Source of the DNA: a virus
IMG/VR virus record: IMGVR_UViG_3300020810_000614
Location: 1 to 20,047 of that record
Strand: one strand, 5' to 3'
DNA length: 20,047 bases
The notes below the pieces were generated by a model. It was not told where the DNA came from. It ran no database searches and saw only the letters and a list, made by a program, of their open reading frames with translations. Of this stretch, positions 2,180 through 17,713 are shown piece by piece. Numbering within the stretch: position 1 is the first letter of the stretch; each line of letters begins with the position of its first letter. The position numbers and the translations under genes were made by a program.

Positions 2180-3282
2180 TAGTTCTGTCTCGTAGTGATA
2201 TTGGTAGTACCTTCACTATTAACTCTGTTAGTTATATCAACCGCACCTTGTATTTGACGTATAGTTGTTTCTTGCGTTGTAGGTACGTTAACACAAGATA
2301 TATCACTACCTGTTGTATTCATACACAGTTCAATAGATATGCTATCAGTAGTATATGTTACACCTTGGTCAGGAATAAAATCTGGAAGCAATTCATTCTT
2401 ATCTGAAGTGGATAGTGTTCTTGATTGTGACATAGCTAGTTGTAGATCTAGTATGTCTAACACATTCTTTAAGAAGTCTCTATCTAACAAGTTTTCACTA
2501 AGTCTATCTGTATATATCTCAGATAGGTCTTTGTCTAATTCATTTTCTAATAGGTTTTGATCTAAGGCATTGTCATCTAATAGACTAATTGTAGTATTAT
2601 CCATTTCTTCATCTTTAAATTCTTTTGGCGGTCCTACGATAATGATTTGTCTAATCATTTCTTCTGTTAGATCAACAATGACTGGTGAAGTAGGCTTTGC
2701 TTCTAGGTTAGGTACGCGAGTAGCTTCAAATGGTTTATTCATTAAGACACTACCGCCTAGACTAGCAACTTCAATAGAACCTGTAACGCAATCACGTTCA
2801 ATGTCTAACCAACCAGGAGGACAACTTGGCAATAGAATAACTGTGGTACTACCTATCTCATCTACTGTGGCGGTAAAATCAGTACCACGAACGGATACTG
2901 TGGCACTTGGTGTTCTAATTTTAACTGATTGTGGATTGTTTTTTGCGATTTGACCTGATGCGTAACGAGCTGTACCAGATGCTATTTTGATTGATAGTTT
3001 ACTTGCATCTGCATTTTTTGGATCGTAAACAAAGTCATCAATGATTAACTTTGCTGATTCTGTCATTTGAACCTGAGTAAAATCTTCAAATGTAATTTCT
3101 AAAGTACCTTGACCAGTACGTAGAGTATCTAACATCTCTACATTGGTACCCATAATACCTTCTAATGTTAAATTTTTTCTTTTAATACTTGCAGGATCAT
3201 GTTTTTGATCACTAATAGTTCCTATAGCACTATGAGATATTATTGGTACAATTGTCAGTAGTGCTATTAGTAACTTTTTCAT
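2179..3282 (-). CDS. FecR-domain periplasmic protein
   Basis: The protein has 367 residues. A signal peptide covers residues 1 to about 19 (MKKLLIALLTIVPIISHSA). Residues of about 30-150 fit the FecR domain: VEMLDTLRTGQGTLEITFED, then ADASKLSIKIASGTARYASG, then VKIRTPSATVSVRGTDFTA. FecR domains in this secreted form differ from the TonB-linked anti-sigma FecR and are often encoded beside CHASE2 cyclases, an arrangement also seen here. The middle (about 225-285) is rich in Leu, Asp and Asn with repeated DxxLLxN-like units and is probably helical. The C-terminal 70 residues are Thr/Ser-rich. A good ribosome site (AGGAAAG, 3 bases before ATG) supports the start. It lies between the two curlin-repeat genes, so it may link surface fibre state to the CHASE2 protein. 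That role is inference; the domain call is from motifs. Confidence 0.78.
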   Translation of the reverse strand: MKKLLIALLTIVPIISHSAIGTISDQKHDPASIKRKNLTLEGIMGTNVEMLDTLRTGQGTLEITFEDFTQVQMTESAKLIIDDFVYDPKNADASKLSIKIASGTARYASGQIAKNNPQSVKIRTPSATVSVRGTDFTATVDEIGSTTVILLPSCPPGWLDIERDCVTGSIEVASLGGSVLMNKPFEATRVPNLEAKPTSPVIVDLTEEMIRQIIIVGPPKEFKDEEMDNTTISLLDDNALDQNLLENELDKDLSEIYTDRLSENLLDRDFLKNVLDILDLQLAMSQSRTLSTSDKNELLPDFIPDQGVTYTTDSISIELCMNTTGSDISCVNVPTTQETTIRQIQGAVDITNRVNSEGTTNITTRQN

Positions 3283-3379
3283 ATTCTTTCCTATGTAACT
3301 CTATTTCATAAAGTGTTTGAGCATTGAATGCATTAACATATTTATTCCATAGTTCATTTTTTTTCAAGATAGTTTCCAT
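3230..3379 (-). CDS. Small overlapping ORF (49 aa), unknown
   Basis: A 49-codon frame fills the gap between the curlin gene and the FecR gene. Its ATG overlaps the curlin stop in a TAATG, as at several real junctions in this window. It begins METILKKNELWNKYVNAF and is charged and probably helical, with no signal peptide or membrane segment. Its last 53 bases overlap the start of the FecR gene in another frame. Without it the 96-base gap would be one of the longest here. I do not recognise it. It could be a small protein, a coupling leader or chance. Confidence 0.4.
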   Translation of the reverse strand: METILKKNELWNKYVNAFNAQTLYEIELHRKEYEKVTNSTTDNCTNNIS

Positions 3380-4290
3380 TAGTCTGACTGTATCAAACTC
3401 CAAGTATTACTTGAGCCTGTTATATTAATATTAGCATCATTATCTTGAGCACCTGTTTGAGATGAAGATACAGTGTTACTTCCGCCTGTAATATCTAACT
3501 CAATGTTGTGTCCAGCTGTACCAGTACTACCATTTTGTGTGGCTGTAACCAGGTTACTCGAACCAATAATACCAATATTCATAATGTGATCACCAACATC
3601 AGTTTGTGATGTTGTTACAACGTTGCTTGATCCATTTATATCTAGATCGAAGAACATACCACCTACACCACCTATACCACTTTGTGTAACACCAACATTA
3701 TTAGCTGAACCAATTACATCAATATCAAGGATAGCATTGTCGCTAGACAAGTTAAGTGTTGCAAGGTTAGCACCACCGCCACTTATAGCTACACCTACTG
3801 TGGTTGTGTCAGCGTTGATGGTAAAGTTAAAGTCATTGTAACTACCACCTGTTGCTGTTGCAATTAGACTGTTGCCAGTACCTAGTAGATCAAACACTAG
3901 ATCGTTGTTATCACCAGTCATTTGTATGTCAGCAGTGTTATTGGCTGCAACTCCTAGTCCGTCACCATTAACATCAATACTTGCTACAGAGTTTGAACCT
4001 GTAATGTAGTAAGTTAAATCAATACCAACACCTGATGCTACTGTTGTGTTTAAATCAATACCTAACAAGTTACTACCACCAATTTGCTGTATGTCAACAG
4101 TTTGACTACTACCAGTAATCGTAGCTGCTGTTCCTTCTGTATCACCAATACCGTAGATCTTGTTTCCACTACCGTCTTGTTTTAGATCGATGGTAGATGA
4201 ACTACCAATTTGATCAATATAGATACTATTGTCTGCACTAAAAGCTAATGATATAGTAAATAATGAATATAAAAAGATTATATGTTTCAT
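3379..4290 (-). CDS. Secreted curlin-repeat protein (CsgA/CsgB-like)
   Basis: The reading frame extends upstream to a TTG, but the ATG at 4290 is chosen because AGGAGT lies 4 bases before it and a signal peptide (MKHIIFLYSLFTISLAFS) starts there. That gives 303 residues. The mature part starts with NSIYIDQIG, nearly the same as the first repeat of the PA14-curlin protein (NSVYIDQAG). Curlin units G-x-x-N-x5-Q are clear in the C-terminal third: GSANNVGVTQ, GSSNVVTTSQ, GSSNLVTATQ, GGSNTVSSSQ and GSSNTWSLIQ. The middle repeats are degenerate and Gln-poor. Curlins are secreted unfolded through CsgG and assemble into cross-beta fibres; stacked Asn/Gln ladders hold them together. It follows csgG by 11 bases, which supports a role as cargo. 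Its length is about twice that of enterobacterial CsgA. Amyloid formation is inference. Confidence 0.82.
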   Translation of the reverse strand: MKHIIFLYSLFTISLAFSADNSIYIDQIGSSSTIDLKQDGSGNKIYGIGDTEGTAATITGSSQTVDIQQIGGSNLLGIDLNTTVASGVGIDLTYYITGSNSVASIDVNGDGLGVAANNTADIQMTGDNNDLVFDLLGTGNSLIATATGGSYNDFNFTINADTTTVGVAISGGGANLATLNLSSDNAILDIDVIGSANNVGVTQSGIGGVGGMFFDLDINGSSNVVTTSQTDVGDHIMNIGIIGSSNLVTATQNGSTGTAGHNIELDITGGSNTVSSSQTGAQDNDANINITGSSNTWSLIQSD

Positions 4291-4301
4291 TTTTACTCCT
4301 A

Positions 4302-5087
4302 TTATGTGGCGAAATCCCAAATATCTTTGCGTTCGCCTTCTTTTATTAATTCAACTACAGCTGCTTCAATTGTAGTTTTTACTGCTAATGTAGCTGGTTC
4401 ATTTAATGTTATACCAGACTCAAATTCAAATATTTGTGTTGCATTATCATAAAATTTTAATATAGCCATACTATCAGCGGTAGAGTAAATTGTTTTTTGT
4501 ACATTTACCGCAGCTAATACTGCTCCTGTATTAACACTTACTGCTCTTAAACTTACCGTAATAATATCTTCACTAAACTGTGTTTGTGGTCCAATACCTA
4601 AAACTCTCATTCCTACACCACCACTTCGTGTAGATGAATCATATCCTGTTATACCACCTTCAATAATCATACCAGCAAATTTCATTGGCATAAGTTTCTT
4701 AGCATTAGGACCATCATATGCTTCACGCATTTGTCGTATAATCTGTCTTTCTTGAGTTAAACTTGCAAGACCAACCCGTTCTACGACATCAAACCATTTA
4801 CTGTTACCAACATCTTTTAATGCTTTAATTAAGAAACTTTCTGCTCCTTGTGTAACAGCAGTACTAAAACTTGCCTGAGTATCACTAGGTCTTCTTTGAC
4901 CTGTTTTATCAGTAAAACTATATACAGCAACCGTTACTTTACCGAGTGCTGGCTGGTTTATTGTATCAAATTCTTTAGCAGTCGACTTTTCAACAAGTAC
5001 AGGTGGTTCGTATTTACCATTAATAGTCTGTGTAGTAGCACATCCGTTTAATAATATAAAGGATAGTAATAAAATTAATGTTTTCAT
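4302..5087 (-). CDS. csgG: CsgG-like curli secretion channel lipoprotein
   Basis: This 261-residue protein is close in length to E. coli CsgG (277). A lipoprotein signal ends LLNGC, with the lipid-bearing Cys at 16. Family signatures follow: VAVYSFTDKTGQRRPSD, ASFSTAVTQGAESFLIKAL, KWFDVVER, QERQIIR, EGGITGYDSSTRSGGVG, LGIGPQTQ, SVNTGAVLAAVNVQKTI and ITLNEP. The two membrane beta-hairpins correspond to residues of about 149-184 and 188-230. CsgG forms a nine-subunit outer-membrane pore that exports curlins. By alignment from memory, the constriction Phe of E. coli (F56) is kept as F74 here, but the neighbouring Tyr51 and Asn55 positions are Asp and Ser. The ATG overlaps the csgF stop in a TAATG. 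No csgE is visible in the window. The family call is secure. Confidence 0.93.
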   Translation of the reverse strand: MKTLILLLSFILLNGCATTQTINGKYEPPVLVEKSTAKEFDTINQPALGKVTVAVYSFTDKTGQRRPSDTQASFSTAVTQGAESFLIKALKDVGNSKWFDVVERVGLASLTQERQIIRQMREAYDGPNAKKLMPMKFAGMIIEGGITGYDSSTRSGGVGMRVLGIGPQTQFSEDIITVSLRAVSVNTGAVLAAVNVQKTIYSTADSMAILKFYDNATQIFEFESGITLNEPATLAVKTTIEAAVVELIKEGERKDIWDFAT

Positions 5088-5539
5088 TAAAATGTAAAGT
5101 CACCCAATGGTATAGTCAATGATGTTGTAGTTCCTGCCATATCAGTTACACCTAACACTATATCACCTGAACTTTTATCCCAAGTAATAATATTACCTTC
5201 AAAGTTTAATGTTCCAGATGTTGGACTAGTGCCATCATCATTAAACATTGCTGTAGCTACGTCTTGTGAAATTTGTGCGTAGATACGTGATTCCAAATTG
5301 CTCATGAATTTTTTAACGTTTGTACTTTCTGCTTCACGTTCTGCTTCTTTTAATGCAGATTCTATCTTATCAGATATAGCTTTTTTACGAGAGTGTTCTT
5401 GATTTTCAATTGTTAAGACGTGTGCGGAATAGCCATTCCCATTAAACGCTGGACTTTTAAAATTAAAGTCACGTAATGGTTGTGCTAATGCAATACTACT
5501 AAATACAAGACTAAGAATCAGTATCTTTTTTGCGAACAT
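5087..5539 (-). CDS. csgF: CsgF-like curli assembly factor
   Basis: The protein has 150 residues, with a signal peptide at 1-19 ending SSIALA. The mature N-terminus (QPLRDFNFKSPAFNGNG) matches the CsgF pattern F-x-F-x-N/S-P-x-F-G/N-G-N, the segment that inserts into the CsgG pore. A charged helical part (about 48-100, EAEREAESTNVKKFMSNLE) leads into the C-terminal beta part, with ITWDKSSGDIVLGVTD and LTIPLGDF. CsgF forms a second constriction on CsgG and helps attach the nucleator at the surface. A ribosome site (GAGG, 8 bases before ATG) supports the start, which lies inside the end of the preceding membrane-protein gene (29-base overlap). Coupling to csgG by TAATG supports joint expression. 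It is about 12 residues longer than E. coli CsgF. Confidence 0.88.
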   Translation of the reverse strand: MFAKKILILSLVFSSIALAQPLRDFNFKSPAFNGNGYSAHVLTIENQEHSRKKAISDKIESALKEAEREAESTNVKKFMSNLESRIYAQISQDVATAMFNDDGTSPTSGTLNFEGNIITWDKSSGDIVLGVTDMAGTTTSLTIPLGDFTF

Positions 5540-6587: not shown

Positions 6588-7670
6588 TTACTTCAAATTG
6601 CGGACTTTGGATTCTCTTTTGATTCTCTCGATTTCTAAATCTGTTTCATATCTACCAAGATTTTTACCAACTGGGTCATTTTTGGGCTCAATTGGATCAA
6701 CCACAGGTTCACTTTTCGGGTCTGGATCTAACCATTTCCTTTTAGTTTTTTGTGGTACTCTTATTTTAGCATTACTTTTAATGCTACCCAAATCTTTTTT
6801 CTCAGGAATTATTAAAGATTCGGGCTGTTGCTTTTTTACAATAGGTTCTTTTCTTATTGGTGCATTAATCGGTGCTCGAGGTGGACTTGGATGTGATTGT
6901 TTCCATGACCAGTTAGCAGCAATAAGCATCAATACAGCTAAAGGATCAAATACAATAACAATCATTATAATCATTCCTCTTACAGCTTTTTCTAAAAGGT
7001 TCTTATCAGGATTATTACCATATATTAATGCTGCAATATATTTAATAGGTCCAACCTCAGCTTCAAGTTCACGTAAGTTTTTAGATATAGGTGCTTTTGA
7101 TTGTTGTAGTTCAATAATCTTATCTTGTGACTTTTTAATATCAGCAGTAAACCTAGCCCGATCTCTTCCTTGTGATCGTCGTATTTTTAATGCTCTTTCA
7201 GCAACATCTTCAACATAAGTATTATTTTGTTTATCCTTTAGTGTTCTACCTTCTGATTCCATTTTACGATTAACAACATCATCCATTTGCTTGATAAGAG
7301 ACTTATTATTCTTAATAGTTTCTCTTTCAATATTGATTTGTTCATCGATGAATACAATCTTTTCAGCAATATCACCAGTTGGTATAGCTTGATCTAAATG
7401 AGCTTTAGATAAGAAACCAAATATACCCATTGAAGTAATAACCATGAGTATAATAACGGCAAAAGTTAAATAAGTTTTGAGTAAGAATGGAGCAGGCCTC
7501 CAGTTTCTATATAACCAAGATGCTACTACTAATTTAGAAACTTCTAATACACTACCCATAACAAGAATAGGAACTACAGCTGCAGCAAAGATAGCAGCTA
7601 ATCCCATTAAAGAATAAAACGCAGCAATAACCGATAAGGTTAATGCGGATATAAACATTAGAATTGTCAT
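6588..7670 (-). CDS. Multi-span membrane protein with coiled coil and Pro-rich tail
   Basis: The protein has 360 residues. The N-terminus is hydrophobic, with membrane segments at about 4-25, 28-50 and 63-87, then a long charged coiled coil (about 100-205, with QINIERETIKNNKSLIKQM and KKSQDKIIELQQSK). Another membrane segment is at about 233-252 (GMIIMIVIVFDPLAVLMLIA). The C-terminal 105 residues are rich in Pro and Lys (SHPSPPRAPINAPIRKEP) and look disordered. Proteins of this layout occur in marine T4-like phages, but I know no proven function. The ATG overlaps the stop of the pyruvyltransferase-like gene (ATGA) with ribosome site AAGGAAAC. An open frame of 222 codons on the other strand is only its shadow. 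Confidence 0.8.
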   Translation of the reverse strand: MTILMFISALTLSVIAAFYSLMGLAAIFAAAVVPILVMGSVLEVSKLVVASWLYRNWRPAPFLLKTYLTFAVIILMVITSMGIFGFLSKAHLDQAIPTGDIAEKIVFIDEQINIERETIKNNKSLIKQMDDVVNRKMESEGRTLKDKQNNTYVEDVAERALKIRRSQGRDRARFTADIKKSQDKIIELQQSKAPISKNLRELEAEVGPIKYIAALIYGNNPDKNLLEKAVRGMIIMIVIVFDPLAVLMLIAANWSWKQSHPSPPRAPINAPIRKEPIVKKQQPESLIIPEKKDLGSIKSNAKIRVPQKTKRKWLDPDPKSEPVVDPIEPKNDPVGKNLGRYETDLEIERIKRESKVRNLK

Positions 7671-8458
7671 AATGTTTCCTTGTATTGTTGTATAGTAGAT
7701 TCACAATAATCAAATAAATCATTAAATTGACTATCGTATTTTCCACTTAAAACATCATCTGGTATCATACTAGTTGATAAACCAAATGGTTTAATTAATC
7801 CTTCATTTTTCCATGAATTGCCTTTAGTCACGATAAATTTACACCGTGCTTTTATAGAAGCATACATTTCATGGTGTCTACCTGTTATAAGTAGATCACT
7901 ATTACGCAATCGATTAACAATCTCATCCCAATCTTGTTCAAATATGTTTATCCGTGGGTAATCATTATGTTTATGAGAATTGTTACTATTAAAATATTGT
8001 CCTCGATATATAGTTATGTGTGGGTATTTTTGTTCTTCAACGGAATGCATTAAGCATCGATCGGGGACTATTTCTGAATCAATATTATTTATATGTAAGG
8101 CAGATTGTGAAAGTGGTTCTCTAACAGTAATTCTACTACATCCAGCTAATGCTTTATGATTTGGCATATCTTGCCAAACAGTATTTAATAACTCAGTTTC
8201 ACATCCAAATTGTTGTGCTCGATATAAAGCATCTAAGAATGTTAAACCTATAGAAGATGAATGATGCATTGTACCTTCACCATTCAATATAACCTTGTCA
8301 TACTTCTTGTAGTTTACACTATCAGCTGAAGCGTATTCATTTGTTTTTATACTACCATCAAATACAAACGATTCTACTACCTTTTTGCATCCAAAGTGAT
8401 AGTCTGATGTATCATTAAGTAAAAGTGTGGAATATGAATGTGGTGTCTTTGTATTCAT
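7667..8458 (-). CDS. Polysaccharide pyruvyltransferase family protein
   Basis: This 263-residue protein fits the family of CsaB and WcaK (PF04230-type). Signs are the N-terminal LLLNDTSDYHFGCKKV, the glycine loop YDKVILNGEGTMHH, the middle CSRITVREPLSQSAL and the C-terminal NSDLLITGRHHEMYASIKA. Family members transfer pyruvate from PEP to sugars of surface polysaccharides; some relatives have other sugar substrates. Its first 44 bases overlap the end of the preceding glycosyltransferase-like gene, so the two probably act together on a surface glycan, a capsule or a virion glycan. The substrate is unknown. Confidence 0.72.
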   Translation of the reverse strand: MNTKTPHSYSTLLLNDTSDYHFGCKKVVESFVFDGSIKTNEYASADSVNYKKYDKVILNGEGTMHHSSSIGLTFLDALYRAQQFGCETELLNTVWQDMPNHKALAGCSRITVREPLSQSALHINNIDSEIVPDRCLMHSVEEQKYPHITIYRGQYFNSNNSHKHNDYPRINIFEQDWDEIVNRLRNSDLLITGRHHEMYASIKARCKFIVTKGNSWKNEGLIKPFGLSTSMIPDDVLSGKYDSQFNDLFDYCESTIQQYKETL

Positions 8459-8939
8459 CTGTCATTTTCTCCCATGCTTTTCTCCACCTTTCTGCACATT
8501 GTTTCATTACAATAGCTTTCATTTTTGATGGATGTTTTACTAATTCATCTGTATAAGAATGAGTATTATCTTTTACTAATGAATCACATCCCCATATGTG
8601 TAGTTCTTTTGGATTATATTTTCTTATTGCCCAATGAGCAGCATAATGTCCTGATGATAATTCAAGTGGTGATACATCAGGAAACCTTACCTGTATATCA
8701 AATATTTCTAATATAGGATTCTTTAATAGATAATTTTTTACGTGTTGATTTACTACAACTGGAATATCAATCTTGGCTCGACCTTCACTAATTTTTTCAC
8801 AGATATTAATATCAGACAATAATGTTACATTAGCTTCTTTCACTCTAGTTACATTTGTTCCTACAACATAATCATCTGCATCAATCTTTTTAAAATTAAT
8901 CCAACTTGGACCATTGCCAACAATGTGTATTCTATTCAT
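8415..8939 (-). CDS. Rossmann-type glycosyltransferase-like protein (GT42/DUF115-like)
   Basis: The protein has 174 residues. It starts with a nucleotide-binding motif (IHIVGNGPSW), as in CST-type sialyltransferases and MAF/DUF115 proteins. A second element SSGHYAAHWAIRKYNPKEL followed by HIWGCDSL matches the G-x-x-A-x-x-x-A ... G-x-D pattern of the same fold. It is shorter than bacterial GT42 enzymes (about 250-300), so it may be a minimal version. It overlaps the GIY-YIG gene by 8 bases and the pyruvyltransferase-like gene by 44. A glycan-modifying role is likely, but the donor sugar is unknown, and a non-enzymatic or pterin kinase-like MptE relation is also possible. Confidence 0.55.
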   Translation of the reverse strand: MNRIHIVGNGPSWINFKKIDADDYVVGTNVTRVKEANVTLLSDINICEKISEGRAKIDIPVVVNQHVKNYLLKNPILEIFDIQVRFPDVSPLELSSGHYAAHWAIRKYNPKELHIWGCDSLVKDNTHSYTDELVKHPSKMKAIVMKQCAERWRKAWEKMTDEYKDTTFIFHTFT

Positions 8940-9489: not shown

Positions 9490-10479
9490 TTATGCTCCTG
9501 CCTGTCCCCAAACATCTTCCCAAGATCCTTTCATCGCACCTTTAGCATAGTCTGTAACTCTATTTTCAAAGAAATTTCCATGAACTGGAGCATTAATCAT
9601 TTCTTCAACCCATGGTAGAGGATTCTTTTTCACTTTAAATATACCTTTCATACCTAAAGCAATTAATCTTCTATCAGCAATATATCGTATATATTTCTTA
9701 ACGTCAACTGAAGTAAGATCTCTCATATCACCTTCTGCAAATGCTAAGTCAATAAACTTATCTTCTAATTCTACCATCTTTTCAGCAATAGCATAGATCT
9801 TTTCTTTAAGAACATCATTCCAAATCTCTTTGTTTTCTTCGATATAGGTTCTAAATAATTTAATCATTGATTCAGCATGCATAGTTTCATCAACAATAGA
9901 CCAAGTAACTATTTGACCCATACCTTTCATTAAACCATGACGAGGAAAATTAAGCAACATAATAAAAGAACTAAACAACTGCATACCTTCGGTAAAAGCT
10001 GAGAATACTGCAATATGTGCTGCTGTCGCTGATTTAGAACCATTTTTTGAACTGAGTTCGGTAACATAGTCGTGTTTATCCTTCATTTCTTGGTATTCTA
10101 GGAATTCATTATATGTTGACTCAGGCATACCTAAAGTCTCAATCAAGTGTGAATAGGCAGCAATATGTAAGGCTTCTCTTGCAGCAAATCCCATTAACAT
10201 CATTCTTATTTCAGGCTGTGGGAAATATGGTAAATAGTTCTTAACATATCCACCAGCAACATCAATATCACCTTGAGTAAAGAATCTAAAGATATTAGTA
10301 AGAAACTGTTGTTCAGCTTTAGTTAATTTCTTTTTCCAGTCTTTCACATCTTCAGCCATAGGAACTTCTGAATGTAACCAATGTGCTTGTTCGTGTTTCA
10401 ACCAGGCATCATATGCCCATGGATAGTTAAATGGTTTGTAGAATGTTCTTTCGTCGGTCAGGGTTAATTTATTATCCAT
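9490..10479 (-). CDS. nrdB: Ribonucleotide reductase class Ia, beta subunit
   Basis: The protein has 329 residues. All six metal ligands can be placed: Asp71, Glu102, His105, Glu164, Glu198 and His201, in GDIDVA, REALHIAAYSH, TEGMQL and VDETMH. The spacing matches E. coli NrdB (Asp84, Glu115, His118, Glu204, Glu238, His241). Tyr109 sits at the place of the radical Tyr122, so a diiron-tyrosyl radical enzyme is expected. It supplies the radical to NrdA for dNTP synthesis during phage replication. The ribosome site AAAGGTAG lies 3 bases before the ATG. It follows nrdA after 62 bases. Confidence 0.96.
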   Translation of the reverse strand: MDNKLTLTDERTFYKPFNYPWAYDAWLKHEQAHWLHSEVPMAEDVKDWKKKLTKAEQQFLTNIFRFFTQGDIDVAGGYVKNYLPYFPQPEIRMMLMGFAAREALHIAAYSHLIETLGMPESTYNEFLEYQEMKDKHDYVTELSSKNGSKSATAAHIAVFSAFTEGMQLFSSFIMLLNFPRHGLMKGMGQIVTWSIVDETMHAESMIKLFRTYIEENKEIWNDVLKEKIYAIAEKMVELEDKFIDLAFAEGDMRDLTSVDVKKYIRYIADRRLIALGMKGIFKVKKNPLPWVEEMINAPVHGNFFENRVTDYAKGAMKGSWEDVWGQAGA

Positions 10480-10541: not shown

Positions 10542-12332
10542 CTAGCCTTGACACGACAAACATTCTTCATCGTTAACCAAAGCACTAAAATCAATCTCTT
10601 TCATAATATCACGTTCAATACGTTTAGAGACCTTATCTGCTTTTGCTATCTTATCTGATCTACAATAGTACATAGTTTTAAGTTTTTGTTTCCATGCCAT
10701 AAAGTGCACTGCATGAATATAACGAATGTCACTGTCAGGTCTAAAGAATACATTAACACTTTGTGCTTGATCGATATACTCTTGTCTATCAGCAGCGTGT
10801 TGTATTAACCATCGTTGATCAATTTCCATTGATGTTTTAAATACATCCTTTTCCCAGTCAGATAGTATATCTAAATGTTGTACACTACCATCATTAGCAA
10901 TAATAGATGACCATAGTTCATCATACTTATCTGGATCTGATGTCTTAGTCATAATAAGCTTATTAAGATACTGATTCTTATGTAAATGAGAACCTGATAA
11001 TGTATCTTGTCGATACGCATTAGCTCTGAATGGTTCTATCGAAGGTGATGTATTACCCATAATAATAGAGCTGGATGCATTAGGAGCAATTGCCATAAGA
11101 TGTGAAAATCTTAATCCTGCATCAACCGCGTCAGGAGCTGGTCCCCTTTCTTCACCAAGTTTTTTATTGGCAGTGTCCAATCGGCGTCGAACAGTTTGAA
11201 AAATTTCTTTGTTAAGTCCTGTTGCCATGGCTGATTCCCACGGAATATTTTTTCGTTGCAGTAAAGCATGCCAGCCAAGAGCACCAATACCAATGCTCCG
11301 CTCCATAGAAGCAGAGTAAATAGCACGAGAAATGGTATCTGGAGCATTATCAATAAAATACTGTAACACGTTATCCAACATTTCCGCAACATCTTTAAGA
11401 AATTTTTGATTTCCTTTCCATTCATCATAGTACTCCAAATTTAAACTTGATAGACAGCATACCGCAGTACGCTTTTCATTAGTTGGTAATATAATTTCAG
11501 AACAAAGATTTGATTGATTAATCTTTAATCCTTGATCTTTTAACCATTTAGGCATTTTACGATTTGATTCATCAATAAAATGTAAGTATGGTTCACCTGT
11601 TGTTAATCGTAATTCTAATATCTTTTGCCACAATTCTTTTGCAGAAACTTTGTCTACAACTTCACCTGAATGAGGATCTTTCAGTTCCCATGAATCATCT
11701 GCATCTGAATCAATCATACTTCGCTCAATGATTTCCATAAATGTATCAGGAATATTAATACCATGATGTAAATTTAAACATCTCATGTTCTGATCACCAG
11801 TAGGCTTTCTCATTTCAAGGAACATAAGAATATCAGGATGAGATATATTTAAATATGCTGCGTAAGAACCTCGTCTTGTACGGCCTTGTCTAAATGCTAG
11901 TGATGATGCATCATACATTTTAAGATGGGGCATAGCACCAGTTGACTTATCACCAGCAGAACGAATACCAAACCCAATACCAACGCCTCCACCTAACATA
12001 GATAGCCAGTTAGTTTCACTTAAGTTCTCCACGAGACCTTCGGCGGTATCGTCTATAAAATTTAAAAAACATGATATTGGTAAACCTCGTTTAGATCTAC
12101 CGAAAGATAAGATTGGTGTTGAATAACTTAACCAATGCTTACTTGAATATTCATATAACCGTTGTGCGTGTTCTGGATTTGACCCAAACATATTTGAAAC
12201 ATAGGCAAATCTTTGTTGAGGGCTTTCCTCATTATCCATCATATATGATTCTTTTAGTCTTGTAAGACCAAGAGCATCAAATAGAGAATCACGAGAATAG
12301 TCAACCTTGATGCCATAAACTACATCTTCCAT
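10542..12332 (-). CDS. nrdA: Ribonucleotide reductase class Ia, alpha subunit without ATP cone
   Basis: The protein has 596 residues, against about 750-760 in E. coli and T4. It starts directly in the catalytic region, so the N-terminal ATP-cone domain that senses dATP is absent. Catalytic residues are present: Cys88 (LPISCFLN), Asn275-x-Cys277-x-Glu279 (NLCSE), Cys292/293 (TAVCCLSS), the Tyr pair at 555-556 (KTMYYC) and the C-terminal redox pair ECLSCQG. It reduces ribonucleoside diphosphates with NrdB. Lack of the cone predicts no shut-off by dATP, useful for a phage; this is inference. The ribosome site GGAG is 5 bases before the ATG. It is transcribed from the promoter region at 12420-12459. 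Confidence 0.95.
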   Translation of the reverse strand: MEDVVYGIKVDYSRDSLFDALGLTRLKESYMMDNEESPQQRFAYVSNMFGSNPEHAQRLYEYSSKHWLSYSTPILSFGRSKRGLPISCFLNFIDDTAEGLVENLSETNWLSMLGGGVGIGFGIRSAGDKSTGAMPHLKMYDASSLAFRQGRTRRGSYAAYLNISHPDILMFLEMRKPTGDQNMRCLNLHHGINIPDTFMEIIERSMIDSDADDSWELKDPHSGEVVDKVSAKELWQKILELRLTTGEPYLHFIDESNRKMPKWLKDQGLKINQSNLCSEIILPTNEKRTAVCCLSSLNLEYYDEWKGNQKFLKDVAEMLDNVLQYFIDNAPDTISRAIYSASMERSIGIGALGWHALLQRKNIPWESAMATGLNKEIFQTVRRRLDTANKKLGEERGPAPDAVDAGLRFSHLMAIAPNASSSIIMGNTSPSIEPFRANAYRQDTLSGSHLHKNQYLNKLIMTKTSDPDKYDELWSSIIANDGSVQHLDILSDWEKDVFKTSMEIDQRWLIQHAADRQEYIDQAQSVNVFFRPDSDIRYIHAVHFMAWKQKLKTMYYCRSDKIAKADKVSKRIERDIMKEIDFSALVNDEECLSCQG

Positions 12333-12419: not shown

Positions 12420-12459
12420 TATTTATAATAATTATACTATACTTTTAAATTAAAGTAAA
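12420..12459 (-). promoter_or_regulatory. nrdA promoter (sigma70-like, with TATAAATA overlap)
   Basis: On the minus strand TTTACT (12459-12454) and TATAAT (12436-12431) are separated by 17 bases. TATAAATA, a T4-like late element, follows at 12427-12420. The upstream box reads TTTACTTTAA, close to the boxes at the primase promoter (TGTACTTTAA) and at the 16585 gene (TGTACATTAA). The leader to nrdA is about 90 bases. The -35 box lies inside the last codons of the preceding gene. Confidence 0.55.
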
Positions 12460-13416
12460 TTTATTTGGGATCTTAGATCCCTGGGATCTATTTTCTTTCA
12501 TATCTCCCATGTCATGCCACTCTCTTTGAGAATTAATTTTACTAATATCTATTGAGCTAAGGTTTCTATTTATATGTGCATCCGATCCCACATTAATGAA
12601 TATGCTATTTTTTTCACCTTTATTTTCAAATCCGTCCCACGCTTTGGCGTCATATGCGGCAGTTGTAGGAATTGGCATTTGATCTGCAGTTGGAGATGGT
12701 TTTAAAAATGGCATAGTTGCTGATGTTACAATAGCATCACCTTTTTCTCCTCGATGAATATTACGTGCTACTGCAATACCATGAGCTTCTGCTTCGGGCC
12801 AACCAATTTGTAATGCTCGTACCATTGTACCTGTAGATACTGCACACCAAATTTGAGATGGATCGTGACCTAGTTGTTCACTAATATTTTTACACATATT
12901 AACTAAACCTGCTGTAACCATTTCATTACCACTAAAACCAAATGGAAGGAACGTTGCATTATTTTCTTCAGCCCATTGTTTAGCATATTGATTTAAAACT
13001 GGCATAGCTGCAATTTTAATAAATCTAACATCTACATGCGGATACGCAAATAATGCACCTTGGTGATTCGAAACTGTTTTAGAAGCTGGACAAAAGAATA
13101 CAACTTTTTTATTATACATTTCAGCTAACATAGCAATAGCATCAGGTGCATGCCCTTGTCTTGGTGCTACATAAACTAATGTATCATGTGGTGCTTCGGC
13201 AATTACTCGTTCACCACCAAAAGCTTTTAATCCACCTGGAGCAAGATCTGCTCGTAGAATATATTTGTCTTTATATTTTTCTACTGTAGGTTTTTCAATG
13301 TTACTTTTAAATGATCCCCATAAATCTAAATAATATTCTCTTGCATCATAACGATCCATTCCCATTGGAATATCTTTATTCCAGGCATCATCTGTTACAG
13401 TGAATAATTTAGCCAT
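12445..13416 (-). CDS. PLP-dependent (TrpB-like, fold type II) enzyme-like protein
   Basis: The frame is open to a TTG at 13428, but the ATG at 13416 has GGGG 6 bases upstream and is chosen, giving 323 residues. The core resembles ACC-deaminase and threonine-synthase-like PLP enzymes. RADLAPGGLKAFGGE at 55-69 has a candidate PLP Lys at 64. VYVAPRQGHAPDAIAMLAE resembles the helix after it, and AVSTGTMVRALQIGW (from 192) could be a phosphate-binding loop. The last 60 residues are polar and unlike the family. It is the last gene of a four-gene block with two aGPT-Pplase-like proteins. PLP enzymes are known to process amino-acid groups on hypermodified thymines in some phages, so a base-modification role is plausible. 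The exact reaction is unknown. Confidence 0.55.
   Translation of the reverse strand: MAKLFTVTDDAWNKDIPMGMDRYDAREYYLDLWGSFKSNIEKPTVEKYKDKYILRADLAPGGLKAFGGERVIAEAPHDTLVYVAPRQGHAPDAIAMLAEMYNKKVVFFCPASKTVSNHQGALFAYPHVDVRFIKIAAMPVLNQYAKQWAEENNATFLPFGFSGNEMVTAGLVNMCKNISEQLGHDPSQIWCAVSTGTMVRALQIGWPEAEAHGIAVARNIHRGEKGDAIVTSATMPFLKPSPTADQMPIPTTAAYDAKAWDGFENKGEKNSIFINVGSDAHINRNLSSIDISKINSQREWHDMGDMKENRSQGSKIPNKFTLI
12467..12489 (-). repeat. GATC-rich dyad near the end of the PLP-like gene
   Basis: On the minus strand AGATCCCAGGGATCT is followed by AAGATCCC, so two alternative hairpins share the middle arm. The 7-base arms are identical in both. There is no T-run after it, so it is not a standard terminator. 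It lies within the last codons of the gene and just before the nrdA promoter. It may be a structured RNA element or chance. Confidence 0.35.
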
Positions 13417-14390
13417 GTTTGACCCCAATCTAAACGCCTATACCATTCAGGAGAAATGTGTACACTTGAACTATTTTCCATATATGTATTTGCATATGTT
13501 TCACCATCCATTTTATACCAATCAAGTGGTGGCATTACTGTTTTATTACCACTTAATTTATTTAATATTTCCATCCATTGATATGTTAAATTTAATCGTT
13601 CTTCTCTACTACCATAAAAAGGTGTATCTTTAAAATATCCAGTTTTTGGTAAACGTCTACTTTCATGTTCTATTGGAACTGGAATTGTATACCATACATC
13701 ACATTCATATTCAGATTCAATTGCTTGACCTTGTTTGACATATTCTTTTAGCATATCTTCAAGATTAAATCCTGCATGTCTCATAATATGATGACGTATA
13801 TCAATTGAACCATATGATAATGTTATAGTACCAAATGGTTTTAATCCTCTAAATTCTGTAATGATACCACGTTTAAGTGTACCATATAATGTTTTACCAT
13901 TTTCTCTTAATACTATATCAGTTAATCTCGAATATGCTGGAGTATGAGAATCGCCAACCGAAATACCATCAAATTTATTTGATATTGATAATAATTCTTC
14001 TTGTTTTAATGATTTGACTTTACTTAATCGTGCAGATAATGCATCACACCATTGTTCTGTAATACCACTAAATGTAGTTGGAGCATTAGTACGCTTTTTA
14101 AGTTGTTCACCCCAATCTGGCATATCCCAATCAAGTGATACAACATTTGGATGAGCTGCGACACGATTAATGCGATTAAATATTTCTTCTGTAGCACCAC
14201 CAAATAAATTTAATGAACCACCAAAATTAACACCATGTTCAATATAAACAATAGATGCATTTGCAATATTAGTTGAACATCTATGATCAATTGTTGCATC
14301 AAGTTGATCTTTCCATATAGAAGCCCAACCCAATACATGAGAGTTTTTTAATTGTGGTATATTACTAATTGGATTTGTTAATACGTTCAT
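13395..14390 (-). CDS. SGNH/GDSL-hydrolase-like protein
   Basis: The protein has 331 residues. The C-terminal two thirds show SGNH-fold blocks: GISVGDSHTPAYSR (GDSH at 146-149, Ser148), a central strand TITLSYGSIDIRHHI (around 193-201) and a late catalytic-type motif SSSVHISPEWYRR (His311). The first 140 residues (IVYIEHGVNFGGSLNLFGG and VSLDWDMPDWGEQL) form a separate part that I do not recognise. SGNH proteins are esterases or acyltransferases on sugars and other small groups. It begins 3 bases after the preceding stop, and its 3' end overlaps the PLP-like gene by 22 bases from the chosen start. A role in moving an acyl or amino group within the same pathway is inference. Confidence 0.5.
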   Translation of the reverse strand: MNVLTNPISNIPQLKNSHVLGWASIWKDQLDATIDHRCSTNIANASIVYIEHGVNFGGSLNLFGGATEEIFNRINRVAAHPNVVSLDWDMPDWGEQLKKRTNAPTTFSGITEQWCDALSARLSKVKSLKQEELLSISNKFDGISVGDSHTPAYSRLTDIVLRENGKTLYGTLKRGIITEFRGLKPFGTITLSYGSIDIRHHIMRHAGFNLEDMLKEYVKQGQAIESEYECDVWYTIPVPIEHESRRLPKTGYFKDTPFYGSREERLNLTYQWMEILNKLSGNKTVMPPLDWYKMDGETYANTYMENSSSVHISPEWYRRLDWGQTWLNYSL

Positions 14391-14393
14391 ATT

Positions 14394-15434
14394 TCAAACA
14401 TCACTTTCCAAAAATTCTTTTGTCATTCCAAAAATTCTTTTGTCATCATCCCTTTTAGCTAGATCAAAGGAATTGGGAAATATCCACGTATATGGGATAC
14501 GTTTAGTTGGCTTTTTAATACCATGACTAATAGCTATATGCTTGTAAAATAGGCAGCTTTTATCCTCTACATTAATCATCTTTTGTTCACGCATAGGATT
14601 TAATGGATGTTCACATAATGTTTTCATTTGTTGTATCCACTGTTCACCATATTTATTGGTTGGTATAAACTCACCATTTGGACCTATTTCGTATTTCACT
14701 TTACCATTTAAATTTTGTCCACCAAAAATCTGATGCATACCATCGAAATGGCCAGTACCACCAAATAATACTGAATTTGGATCTACTAAATGCGGATATG
14801 CAAATGCCATATATCTTGCTGTATTTTTACATGGATATAATGGACTTCTAAAGTTTTGATGTTCTTTAAAATATGCCTCTAATCTTTTTGCAAATTCCAT
14901 CATTGTAAATGGTCTATTCATTTGAACTGGTTCATCTAATATTGTATGAATATCATTAGCAGCTTTCATTGGACCTTCGAGTAACCATTCTTTAACATTA
15001 GTACCTTTAGGATAATAAATTTGAAATAAATCATTACGAGCATGACGCTGTGATTTAAATTTCTCCCTAGTAATATCAATGCCATCATCCATAAGAGACA
15101 TTAATGTGCCCCAATGTTCATTACTAAATGAAAAAACAAGAGTATAAAATAATCTCATTTTATTATCTGTAACATTTTTCATAACATCCACAAATGGATG
15201 TTCATGCCAATGTAATCTATGAGAAAATATTTGATAATCTTCTTTTAATAGTTTATCTTCACGTTTGTCAAATGCATTACACCACTCGAAGAATTTTTCA
15301 AATCTCTGTTCTTGAGTCCAATCTTTCATCCAACTTTCTGTTGGTTTACCATTCTTTAATACTATTTCAGATGTATTTTCATATGTAATATTCTTATATG
15401 GTTCATCTGTAAAGTCCATTAAATCGCTTGGCAT
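14394..15434 (-). CDS. aGPT-Pplase/amino-acid:DNA-transferase-like helical protein 2
   Basis: The protein has 346 residues; a start at Met6 (15419), where ATG overlaps the previous stop (TAATG), is equally possible. Residues of about 195-240 read FRSPLYPCKNTARYMAFAYP, then DPNSVLFGGTGHFDGM and HQIFGG, like the glycine motif of alpha-glutamyl/putrescinyl-thymine pyrophosphorylase and 5-hmdU-kinase helical domains. A late motif INVEDKSCLFYKH (288-299) matches their E-x-x-L-C-E-F-x-K. These families act on hypermodified thymine in phage DNA. The match is from pattern memory only. The last codons are altered by a 20-base tandem duplication (14406-14445). It may be a partner of the 388-residue protein before it. 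Confidence 0.5.
   Translation of the reverse strand: MPSDLMDFTDEPYKNITYENTSEIVLKNGKPTESWMKDWTQEQRFEKFFEWCNAFDKREDKLLKEDYQIFSHRLHWHEHPFVDVMKNVTDNKMRLFYTLVFSFSNEHWGTLMSLMDDGIDITREKFKSQRHARNDLFQIYYPKGTNVKEWLLEGPMKAANDIHTILDEPVQMNRPFTMMEFAKRLEAYFKEHQNFRSPLYPCKNTARYMAFAYPHLVDPNSVLFGGTGHFDGMHQIFGGQNLNGKVKYEIGPNGEFIPTNKYGEQWIQQMKTLCEHPLNPMREQKMINVEDKSCLFYKHIAISHGIKKPTKRIPYTWIFPNSFDLAKRDDDKRIFGMTKEFLESDV
14406..14445. repeat. 20-bp perfect tandem duplication
   Basis: The plus strand has TTCCAAAAATTCTTTTGTCA twice, with no gap and no mismatch. Because 20 is not a multiple of 3, the second copy is read in another frame: DKRIFG then MTKEFLE. With a single copy the frame would read DDDKRIFGK and stop at TGA, so the duplication has added a few residues and moved the stop to just before the next gene. 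It could be a recent slip in the genome or an assembly error. Confidence 0.9.
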
Positions 15435-16585
15435 AGTTCTTTATATTTTTCTATTGACATATTATTTTCTTTTAATATATAATCATCTGAAGGATGTGCT
15501 GACATATTATTAAATGTTTCAACTAGACCTAATTCTAACATCTTTTTTTGACGGCCATATGGATGATCTGTAATTCTACATGATGACCATACTTTATCAA
15601 AATCTAAGTGATTATAGTCTGCACCCGGTCGAATATAGTTTTCAACCCATCTAATAAAATCACAACACACATCTTCAGCATTATAAGGATAAGCTCCAGT
15701 ATCCTCATATATTTTCATCATAACTTCATCAAGAAATTCTTCTTTAGGCATTTTACTTGTAGGATTTGCAAGATATGATATGCATTCTACTGCATTTGTA
15801 CCATAATAAAATGGTGATTCTCTGTTGACATATTCTGGATACCAATCTGCAATATCTGCAACGACTGCTGCATATTGGAATTTATATTGTCTCAATCCAT
15901 TTTGCACATTCCAATCTAGCATAAAAGATCCAATCTCACGTAAATCTTTTTTTCCGCCTTTTTCTAAAAATTCAGCAAGATCACGAGCTAATCGTGGTGC
16001 ATATTCTGTTAGATAATAATCACCGCCTCGTTTGAATCGCGATCCAACTGGTGGTTTTGGAAATGCAGGAAATTGATAACCGATTGATGTATAGAATGGT
16101 TTATCATAATTATTAACAACTGCAGTCATATTTTCTATAGTTGGACAATCGTATAGATAAAATAATAATGTATTATGATATCCACTTGGCTTAGTACCAT
16201 AATTAATAGCTGAACCGCATACGCGATGTAATATAAAAACATATAACCATTCTGGTAATTTAAAATCGCTATGTTTACCAGTCCAATTTTTAGCTACAGT
16301 TTCTCTTTGTACTGTAACATTATTGGCTTCCATCTTTTTCCAATATGGATGATCTTCAGTCCAACCATAAAATACATCATTTACTATTTGAGAGAATCCA
16401 GCAAACTTACGTTCAACAACATCATATAATTCTACATTATGCATTAAGTCATCGCTGACATTAGATTCTAAATGAGGTATCATACCGTATGGTTCATTTA
16501 ATGATACATTACATTTTTCTTGTTGTTCTTTGGCTATAGAGAAATATCTTAGATATTCATCATAGTATTTGGTAATTTCAATCAT
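15419..16585 (-). CDS. aGPT-Pplase/amino-acid:DNA-transferase-like helical protein 1
   Basis: The open frame reaches 16678, but the ATG at 16585 is preferred: it follows a TATAAT box by 7 bases and gives a clean N-terminus (MIEITKYYDEYLRYF), 388 residues. Conserved elements are HRVCGSAINYGTKPSGYHNT (120-139), VVADIADWYPEYV followed by YGTNAVECISYL (261-272), and AEDVCCDFIRW (303-313). These match by pattern the GSA, GPGA and E-x-x-L-C-x-F-x-K motifs of alpha-glutamyl/putrescinyl-thymine pyrophosphorylase and 5-hmdU-kinase helical families. Those act on hypermodified thymine in phage DNA. There is no Shine-Dalgarno. It heads a four-gene block. The homology call needs an HMM search; the phage could instead use the fold for another nucleotide reaction. 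Confidence 0.5.
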   Translation of the reverse strand: MIEITKYYDEYLRYFSIAKEQQEKCNVSLNEPYGMIPHLESNVSDDLMHNVELYDVVERKFAGFSQIVNDVFYGWTEDHPYWKKMEANNVTVQRETVAKNWTGKHSDFKLPEWLYVFILHRVCGSAINYGTKPSGYHNTLLFYLYDCPTIENMTAVVNNYDKPFYTSIGYQFPAFPKPPVGSRFKRGGDYYLTEYAPRLARDLAEFLEKGGKKDLREIGSFMLDWNVQNGLRQYKFQYAAVVADIADWYPEYVNRESPFYYGTNAVECISYLANPTSKMPKEEFLDEVMMKIYEDTGAYPYNAEDVCCDFIRWVENYIRPGADYNHLDFDKVWSSCRITDHPYGRQKKMLELGLVETFNNMSAHPSDDYILKENNMSIEKYKELCQAI

Positions 16586-16622: not shown

Positions 16623-16703
16623 TTATTCTGAAATAAAATCTCCGGCCATTGGGAATATTTCTGCAATTGCACAAGCAATTTCTCTTGTTAATCTTACTTT
16701 CAT
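16623..16703 (-). CDS. 26-residue ORF after the primase
   Basis: A 26-codon frame starts in a TAATG overlap with the primase stop and has GGAG 9 bases before its ATG. It reads MKVRLTREIACAIAEIFPMA then GDFISE. It ends just before the next promoter, filling the gap exactly. No family is recognised; it may be a short peptide or a coupling artefact. Confidence 0.5.
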   Translation of the reverse strand: MKVRLTREIACAIAEIFPMAGDFISE

Positions 16704-17713
16704 TAGCACTTTCTCCATTGTGTAAATTTTAATTTAGCTTCTATTCCTTGATGTGTGTTTGTATTTATGGTTTTTATAATGCCGTCAGATTTTTTACCAC
16801 TTAAAATCATTTCATTAATATCTTTTTCTTTTATTGTATCAGGCCATAAACATACTTTATAATCTTGTTGAATATATTTTTCTATATAGTTACATATCTC
16901 TTTAGATCTTGGTTCATTATCCATTACAATAACTGAATTTAAGCTGCGGATTGTAGGAGAGTCCATACCAGCACCACTAACGGCAATACAGTTAGGAATA
17001 AACAAAGAATCAATAGGACCTTCAACCACATAGACGATTTCTTTAGTATCAATTCTATCCAAGCCATAAATCTTTTCCTTCTCATCATCAAGTTTAATTG
17101 TTATATATCGTGGTTCTTCTTTACCAAATGATCGACCTTGTAAAGCAAACACTTTACCATTATCAAAATATGGAATAATTAACCGAGGAATATCATTCTC
17201 AGTATTCATAAAATGAAATTTAAGGTTATTTACAAAGGTTTTAAATTTAGGAGCAAAGTATAAGTACTTCCATTTATCATTTGGAATCTTACGTTTTACT
17301 ACATATTTGACTGCCGGGTGTGAAAAAGGGAGTGAATCTACACAAAAAGCACCTGCTTTTATTATGTCTGTATTAATCTGTATCTCGGATTCAACCAGAG
17401 TAGTTTCTTTAATATCTGTATGATCAAAGTGTTTATTAGCATTTTCTTTATATCGTTCTAGTACATACTCATTATACATTGTTGAATCTAAGTGTTTGAT
17501 TAAATTGCCGACATTAGATGAATATCCACAGTTATGGCACTTATAAACAAGATGCGATTTATGTAAGAATACATAGCCGCGTGCTTTTAACGCATTAGAC
17601 TTAGAATCGCCACATATAGGGCAACTAAAATTCCAATAGTTTTCTTTTTTCTTTTTGAAGTTTCTGAGTTTATAACTCAGTAGATTCACATATTTTGCAT
17701 CAATATATAACAT
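16703..17713 (-). CDS. DNA primase (T4 gp61/DnaG type)
   Basis: The protein has 336 residues. An N-terminal zinc-binding domain has CPIC at 31-34 and CHNC at 59-62. The catalytic Toprim domain follows, with VVEGPIDSLF (Glu231), VIVMDNEPR (Asp265) and KDINEM (Asp298). It makes RNA primers for lagging-strand synthesis with the phage helicase, which is not in this window. The length matches T4 gp61 (about 340). There is no Shine-Dalgarno; TATAAT lies 8 bases before the ATG, so a leaderless mRNA is likely. Confidence 0.88.
   Translation of the reverse strand: MLYIDAKYVNLLSYKLRNFKKKKENYWNFSCPICGDSKSNALKARGYVFLHKSHLVYKCHNCGYSSNVGNLIKHLDSTMYNEYVLERYKENANKHFDHTDIKETTLVESEIQINTDIIKAGAFCVDSLPFSHPAVKYVVKRKIPNDKWKYLYFAPKFKTFVNNLKFHFMNTENDIPRLIIPYFDNGKVFALQGRSFGKEEPRYITIKLDDEKEKIYGLDRIDTKEIVYVVEGPIDSLFIPNCIAVSGAGMDSPTIRSLNSVIVMDNEPRSKEICNYIEKYIQQDYKVCLWPDTIKEKDINEMILSGKKSDGIIKTINTNTHQGIEAKLKFTQWRKC

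Follow-up and report, generated by a model that had tools for sequence, protein, structure and literature searches.

The virus fragment IMGVR_UViG_3300020810_000614 from IMG/VR, 20,047 nucleotides long and here called the window (the whole stretch of DNA analysed), derives from an uncultured T4-like virus and carries primase, nrdA, nrdB and SegE genes that are recognised by Pfam and PHROG matches. Four successive proteins, P1 to P4, are encoded on its minus strand from position 16585 to 12445, and these are the four open reading frames (ORFs) in which an earlier note, made from the letters alone, had seen a candidate DNA-base hypermodification cassette. P1 and P2 overlap by 16 bp, P2 and P3 are separated by a gap of 3 bp, and P3 overlaps P4, so the genes are packed tightly on one strand in an operon-like arrangement. 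Gene linkage, the folds of P2 and P1, the kinship of P4 and the motifs of P3 all support a base-hypermodification cassette, and we propose that P1–P4 probably act after replication as a hypermodification module whose substrate is 5-hydroxymethylcytosine (hmC), in T4-like phages and in some others.

A conserved module of four genes

Relatives of P1, P2, P3 and P4 were each collected separately from viral contigs. All four genes occur together at 100 loci, and at every one of them (100/100) they share a strand and fit within 6 kb, although six different gene orders occur. Of the P1 loci flanked by 5 kb at either end, 18 are distinct, and P2 is present in 16 of these, P3 in 16 and P4 in 14; the 23 distinct P2 loci contain P1 in every case and P3 and P4 in 22 each. 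P1–P4 are also the only families that are common to all six long relatives (150–183 kb) and absent from T4. A constant gene set in permuted orders argues for a shared function of the four proteins.

Loci anchored on P3 and flanked by 4 kb or more at either end contain P1 and P3 (4 loci), P1, P3 and P4 (15) or all four genes (8). This nested series suggests that P1 and P3 make a first product, which P4 alters and to which P2 adds a layer. A module of P3 and P2 without P1 (L396 and L402) was considered and rejected, since the contigs end there. The module is found in T4-like phages and in at least one other phage type; on contig L155 no recognisable T4-like genes lie beside it.

A linked dCMP hydroxymethylase points to cytosine

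The thymidylate-synthase homologue that the earlier note expected as a partner does accompany the module in relatives of the window, where a gene of this family is present in 72 collected loci. The family profile matches T4 gp42, the dCMP hydroxymethylase, with an hhalign E-value (E) of 8e-93, and most of the linked sequences are 50–65% identical to T4 gp42. An Asp rather than an Asn at T4 gp42 position 179 is what distinguishes dCMP from dUMP enzymes (PMC8670742). This Asp, together with Cys148, is present in 47/47 distinct sequences and in 45/45 new ones from a scan with P3 (92/92 in all). Its assignment is independent of the alignment, unlike that of the corresponding residue in M6 gp58, which is Asn in two alignments and Ala in one. 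Judged by its sequence, the linked enzyme is a dCMP hydroxymethylase, and it presumably serves the module; because it keeps the cytosine-specifying Asp, the target of the module is likely to be hmC.

A gp42-type gene is present in 25 of the 27 P3-anchored loci with flanks of at least 4 kb, and 13 of the window's nearest P2 relatives (81–85% identity) have one upstream. Genes for dCMP deaminase and PRA-PH lie alongside the modules, and an Asp-type thymidylate synthase, PRA-PH and dCMP deaminase were experimentally enriched on virome contigs with modified cytosine (PMC8670742).

A gene of the C5-cytosine-methyltransferase family lies close downstream of P3 in 21 loci (for example L049 13943–15142, L031 13057–14259 and L012 12357–13562) and may add a further cytosine step.

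Predicted folds and motifs of P1 and P2

Foldseek against the PDB alone was uninformative for the P1 and P2 models, and the fold matches came from VIA re-ranking. The best match of the AlphaFold2 model of P2 (predicted local distance difference test (pLDDT) score 88.5) is 8z2n, the 5-phosphomethyl-2′-deoxyuridine (5-PmdU) glycinyltransferase gp46 of PaMx11 (Z 9.4 over 223 residues, 4.2 Å); 8z2n and 8z2m occupy the top two rows (Z 9.4 and 9.2), followed by 8-oxoguanine glycosylases at 7.7. In BFVD the best neighbour is 53% identical to P2, and it and the next one are automatically named 'Amino acid:DNA transferase domain-containing protein'; P2 matches entry A0A6J5LCY1 at E 3e-29, and an aGPT-Pplase clade-1 protein is a weak fold neighbour (E 0.017). 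P2 is therefore modelled with an amino-acid:DNA-transferase fold, and is predicted to transfer an amino acid to the base.

The P1 model (pLDDT 91.3) has the helix-hairpin-helix (HhH) DNA-glycosylase fold. Glycosylases occupy its top VIA rows (Pa-AGOG 1xqo, Z 8.1), and the DUF2419 queuine-salvage enzyme 7ulc matches at Z 8.0; PaMx11 gp46 is absent from the P1 rows, an absence that does not exclude likeness. With the enlarged family, the profiles of P1 and P2 match each other across 133 columns (E 1.9e-5, against 0.63 for the reversed control). As a yardstick, the M6 ADDT and HMUDK_hel family profiles match at only E 0.0055. The likeness to amino-acid:DNA transferases proposed for both proteins is thus borne out by fold for P2 and by homology to P2 for P1, which is probably a base-flipping transferase or a partner subunit.

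P1 contains the motifs G124-S-A, G262-T-N-A and E304-D-V-C-C-D-F-I-R, and P2 contains G226-T-G and E290-D-K-S-C-L-F-Y-K. Of the patterns first read from these two proteins, GTG/GTNA and ED-x-x-C-x-F-x-K/R were recovered, and GSA occurs in P1 only. The pattern ED..C.F.[KR] has a frequency of 0.03% for P1 and 0.02% for P2 in 200,000 shuffles per protein, and the tested motif residues are invariant wherever ungapped (105/106 P1 rows and 94/98 P2 rows).

The tie of P1 and P2 to the transferase families is by modelled fold and by profile, not by Pfam models. In the model search suggested by the earlier note, no member of the P1, P2 or P3 families matched the ADDT, HMUDK_hel or aGPT-Pplase models at E 0.1; the ADDT model (PF18724) does find M6 gp51, at E 1e-46, and HMUDK_hel (PF18723) likewise gave no P1 or P2 match in Pfam searches. 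Direct searches with P1–P3 in Pfam, NCBIfam, PHROG and the PDB sequences returned no functional match, comparison of P1 or P2 by hhalign with individual proteins of M6, ViI and phiW-14 returned none, and no relatives of P1 or P2 were found in cultured phages at E 1e-5. Weak matches of P1 to APH and Cactin were rejected as chance level.

P4 is a pyridoxal phosphate enzyme

P4 was first described as resembling a fold-type II pyridoxal phosphate (PLP) enzyme, and several lines agree with this. It matches Pfam PALP at E 9.5e-7, under the curated cut-off (28.9 versus 35 bits), PHROG 7093 'threonine dehydratase' at E 1e-65, and the M6 gp52 family in hhalign (97.9%, E 6e-13). Lys63, which is invariant in 124/124 ungapped sequences, is presumably the Schiff-base lysine. 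In published work, the M6-type pathway is credited with a PLP-dependent step that decarboxylates an amino acid attached to DNA. In a separate case, gp1 of Erythrobacter phage R6L (L165) fuses a PALP PLP domain to an N6/N4 DNA methylase, which suggests that the action of PLP enzymes extends to further DNA bases.

P3 combines SGNH motifs with a weak glucosyltransferase likeness

P3 is found at more than 560 viral loci, cultured Aeromonas phages carry it too, and it matches PHROG 13881 at E 2.5e-107. The C-terminal half contains GDSH, a conserved Gly, G-x-I-D-x-R-H-H and S-x-H, ordered as the SGNH blocks, and Ser148, His149, Gly170, Asp197 and His311 are invariant in the ungapped family sequences. 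The motifs, with their invariant Ser and His, fit the SGNH-like enzyme that had been suspected here. Unlike SGNH block V, P3 has no Asp three residues before the last His, and Pfam Lipase_GDSL reaches only E 0.0098, in 2/55 P3 members.

The N-terminal half raises a different possibility, that hmC receives a sugar, with P3 as the glycosyltransferase or a sugar-tailoring enzyme and the other genes decorating the sugar. T4 beta-glucosyltransferase (BGT) is matched by 10/55 P3 members (best E 0.002), and the P3 N-terminus matches the BGT family profile at E 1.7e-5 over 89 columns. Stand-alone P3 follows a UDP-galactopyranose mutase and a probable GT-B gene in phiAS4, IME13 and Aes516, and CTP_transf-like genes lie near some modules. 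However, the similarity drops to E 0.0034 over 45 columns with the broader P3 family, the motifs of the C-terminal half follow the SGNH order, Ser148 and His311 being invariant, and sugar genes are no constant partner in the listed contexts. We consider a sugar-based modification unlikely, and the assignment of P3 as a plain relative of T4 BGT was weakened by the same addition of sequences. The three consecutive genes of phiAS4 (L317 1769–5041) are in their own right a candidate hmC sugar modification in cultured phages.

In Aeromonas phages 31 and avDM9, P3 is fused to a C-terminal HMUDK_hel-like domain, whose matches (E 0.0008 and 0.002) do not reach the cut-off. In phage 31 the gene at L167 6402–7925, directly before the P3 fusion gene, encodes a member of the sodium:solute symporter family (PF00474, E 7e-53).

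No known kinase accompanies the module

A 5-hydroxymethyl-2′-deoxyuridine (5-hmdU) kinase had been expected as a second partner. The kinase family PF18748 was found in none of nine long relatives, nor in Aeromonas phage 31, by the same search that finds it in M6. In two contigs of near-T4 length, the ORFs with a P-loop motif showed no small kinase; they encode large replication- or packaging-type proteins or contain the motif by chance. The known 5-hmdU DNA kinase (5-HMUDK) does not phosphorylate hmC (PMC6457204). With no known kinase at hand, the module would use a kinase of another type, another activation, or direct chemistry.

These results bear on the thymine route of M6 and PaMx11, which the earlier note implied and in which 5-hmdU is phosphorylated, P2 transfers an amino acid and P4 decarboxylates it. 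The resemblance of P2 to the 5-PmdU glycinyltransferase and the kinship of P4 with M6 gp52 would fit such a route, but the linked thymidylate-synthase homologue is of the cytosine type in all 92 distinct sequences, PF18748 is missing, and the P3-anchored loci yielded no match to the M6 gp53 radical S-adenosylmethionine (SAM) or gp54 kinase families. We therefore regard modification of thymine by P1–P4 as improbable.

Alternatively, the enzymes could modify free 5-hydroxymethyl-dCMP or dCTP before incorporation. The module is surrounded by nucleotide-metabolism genes, and the hmC carbamoyltransferase uses 5hmdCTP as well as DNA (PMC8670742). The folds of P1 and P2 are nevertheless those of DNA-base-flipping glycosylases and of a DNA glycinyltransferase, which makes action on free nucleotides very improbable. 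That P1 and P2 are active DNA glycosylases attacking host or rival-phage DNA, as the 8-oxoguanine DNA glycosylases among the best P1 folds might suggest, is hardly credible, since the best match of P2 is a transferase of the same fold and the constant pairing with a dCMP hydroxymethylase, P3 and a PLP enzyme would be unexpected for a free glycosylase.

A model for hmC hypermodification

For the post-replicative modification of hmC by P1–P4, we propose the following sequence of events. The gp42-type hydroxymethylase, dCMP deaminase and dCTP-removing enzymes would supply 5-hydroxymethyl-dCMP and hence hmC DNA. P1 would flip out hmC and, with P3, install or activate a first group on the 5-methylene; this placing of P1 and P3 at the start follows from their being the smallest module and from the P3–HMUDK_hel-like fusion in Aeromonas phages. 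P4 would then remodel an amino-acid-like group on the base, and in the fullest version of the module P2, to judge by its fold, may attach an amino acid or amine. For phage hypermodification in general, it is established that the modified bases shield the DNA from restriction and from other defences that target DNA, and this would most likely be the purpose here.

The pair P1 and P3, and the fusion, parallel the M6 pair of kinase and HMUDK_hel, from which P3 would supply the activation. That P3 stands in for the missing kinase, an argument by analogy, is the weakest step of the model. A kinase-independent route, in which P3 as an SGNH-type enzyme activates the hydroxymethyl instead of its being phosphorylated, P1 and then P2 as HhH-fold transferases substitute an amino acid or amine, and P4 remodels it, to give a new class of hypermodified cytosine that would be widespread in aquatic T4-like phages, is put forward only tentatively and is rather doubtful.

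Several observations weigh against a hypermodification module for hmC. There is no hydroxymethylase gene on the 20 kb window, nor on the near-identical sister contig L001 (14.5 kb), so that we infer the presence of the enzyme in the window's phage. In the class with gene order P3-P1-P2-P4, a linked gp42 homologue is found in 0/11 distinct loci, and three long contigs of this class (150–183 kb, possibly incomplete) contain none. Neither a kinase nor another activating enzyme was found for the module. P1 and P2 match no Pfam model, neither of their structural models has a Foldseek match in the PDB at E 0.001 or better, and Z scores of 8–9 are moderate for helical proteins. P2 reaches the HMUDK_hel profile at only E 0.05, in a co-linear alignment that pairs the GPGA and ED/DVE..LC.F.K motifs.

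The P3-P1-P2-P4 class usually adjoins nrdB/nrdA. One 256 kb contig of this class encodes, elsewhere on the contig, a divergent enzyme with Cys and Asp. The gene after P4 in the class is a homologue of the T4 gp56 dCTPase (E 4e-16), which also points to cytosine replacement; the linked small genes c5, PRA-PH and DUF6378 are not recognisably gp56-like.

Relation to known systems

Known decorations of hmC are sugars or carbamoyl, and to our knowledge amino-acid-based hypermodifications with a comparable enzyme set are known on thymine, via 5-hmdU and a kinase. In the M6 operon, gp52 lies beside gp51 (ADDT), gp54/gp55 (HMUDK) and the thymidylate-synthase homologue gp58; gp51, a sequence relative of the PaMx11 gp46 crystal structure, has been solved as 25qc. 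We take gp51 to be the ADDT protein, gp52 the PLP enzyme, gp53 the radical SAM enzyme, gp54 the kinase and gp55 the HMUDK_hel protein. Modules of P1–P4 resemble M6 and PaMx11 in that a thymidylate-synthase homologue is clustered with a dCMP deaminase, a homologous fold-type II PLP enzyme and a pair of proteins with an HhH-like fold, which in the modules are P1 and P2. Despite these similarities, the hydroxymethylase is of the cytosine and not the uracil type, no hmdU kinase or M6-type radical SAM gene was found with P1–P4, the SGNH-like P3 is added, and P1 and P2 fall outside the ADDT and HMUDK_hel Pfam models.

With T4 glucosylation of hmC the module shares a dCMP hydroxymethylase of the gp42 type and the replacement of cytosine in phages of T4-like kind, whereas the six long relatives have no beta-glucosyltransferase homologue and carry P1–P4 instead of glucosyltransferases. 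The Aeromonas phages 31 and avDM9 and the phiAS4 type share a P3 homologue (E 3e-60), and phage 31 has a gp42 with Asp179; in contrast to the module, no P1, P2 or P4 was seen beside their P3, and the phiAS4 type carries UDP-galactopyranose mutase next to it. The 5hmC carbamoyltransferase modules found by MetaGPA have the same neighbours, an Asp-type thymidylate synthase, PRA-PH and dCMP deaminase, with the slot of the carbamoyltransferase taken here by P1–P4 (PMC8670742). Amino-acid decoration of phage cytosine, which for P1–P4 is a proposal, is also seen in the CmoA/CmoX/CmoY system that makes 5-carboxymethylcytosine-glycine, although its chemistry and enzymes differ (PMC12783734); the C5-methyltransferase-family gene near some P1–P4 modules is not established as CmoX.

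Already known, then, are database names for P2-like and P4-like proteins, the decoration of hmC and amino-acid-derived hypermodification of thymine. We found no description of the combination of P1–P4 with hmC supply in the literature covered, which mostly excluded subscription journals. The module unites hmC supply genes with transferase-fold and PLP enzymes, without a known kinase. Present in at least 100 collected viral loci, it predicts a modified cytosine of a new kind and is a potential source of enzymes for writing new groups on hmC.

Other genes of the window

Table 1 Features of the window.
Feature	Position	Strand	Length	Description
P1	15419..16585	minus	388 aa	HhH-DNA-glycosylase-like fold (model), P2 homologue; probable base-flipping transferase or partner subunit
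P2	14394..15434	minus	346 aa	amino-acid:DNA-transferase-like fold (model)
P3	13395..14390	minus	331 aa	SGNH-like C-terminal half; N-terminal half weakly T4 beta-glucosyltransferase-like; PHROG 13881
P4	12445..13413	minus	322 aa	fold-type II PLP enzyme, invariant Lys63
DNA primase	16703..17713	minus		upstream of P1; PHROG 47, E 3.9e-82
nrdA, ribonucleotide reductase large subunit	10542..12332	minus		next gene downstream of P4; PF02867, E 1.2e-105
nrdB, ribonucleotide reductase small subunit	9490..10479	minus		PF00268, E 5.5e-75
Two adjacent proteins	7667..8939	minus		next to SegE-like homing endonuclease
Tetraspanin-like protein (weak match)	6588..7670	minus	360 aa	E 2e-4
Curli block	827..5539	minus		curli / type VIII secretion

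One of the two adjacent proteins beside the SegE-like gene is polysaccharide pyruvyl transferase-like (E 1e-5). The curli block of this T4-like phage encodes a protein with PA14 and curlin repeats, a FecR-like protein, a curlin-repeat protein, CsgG (E 3e-49) and CsgF (E 2e-12); a comparable gene set is reported from pelagiphages (PMC9599517).

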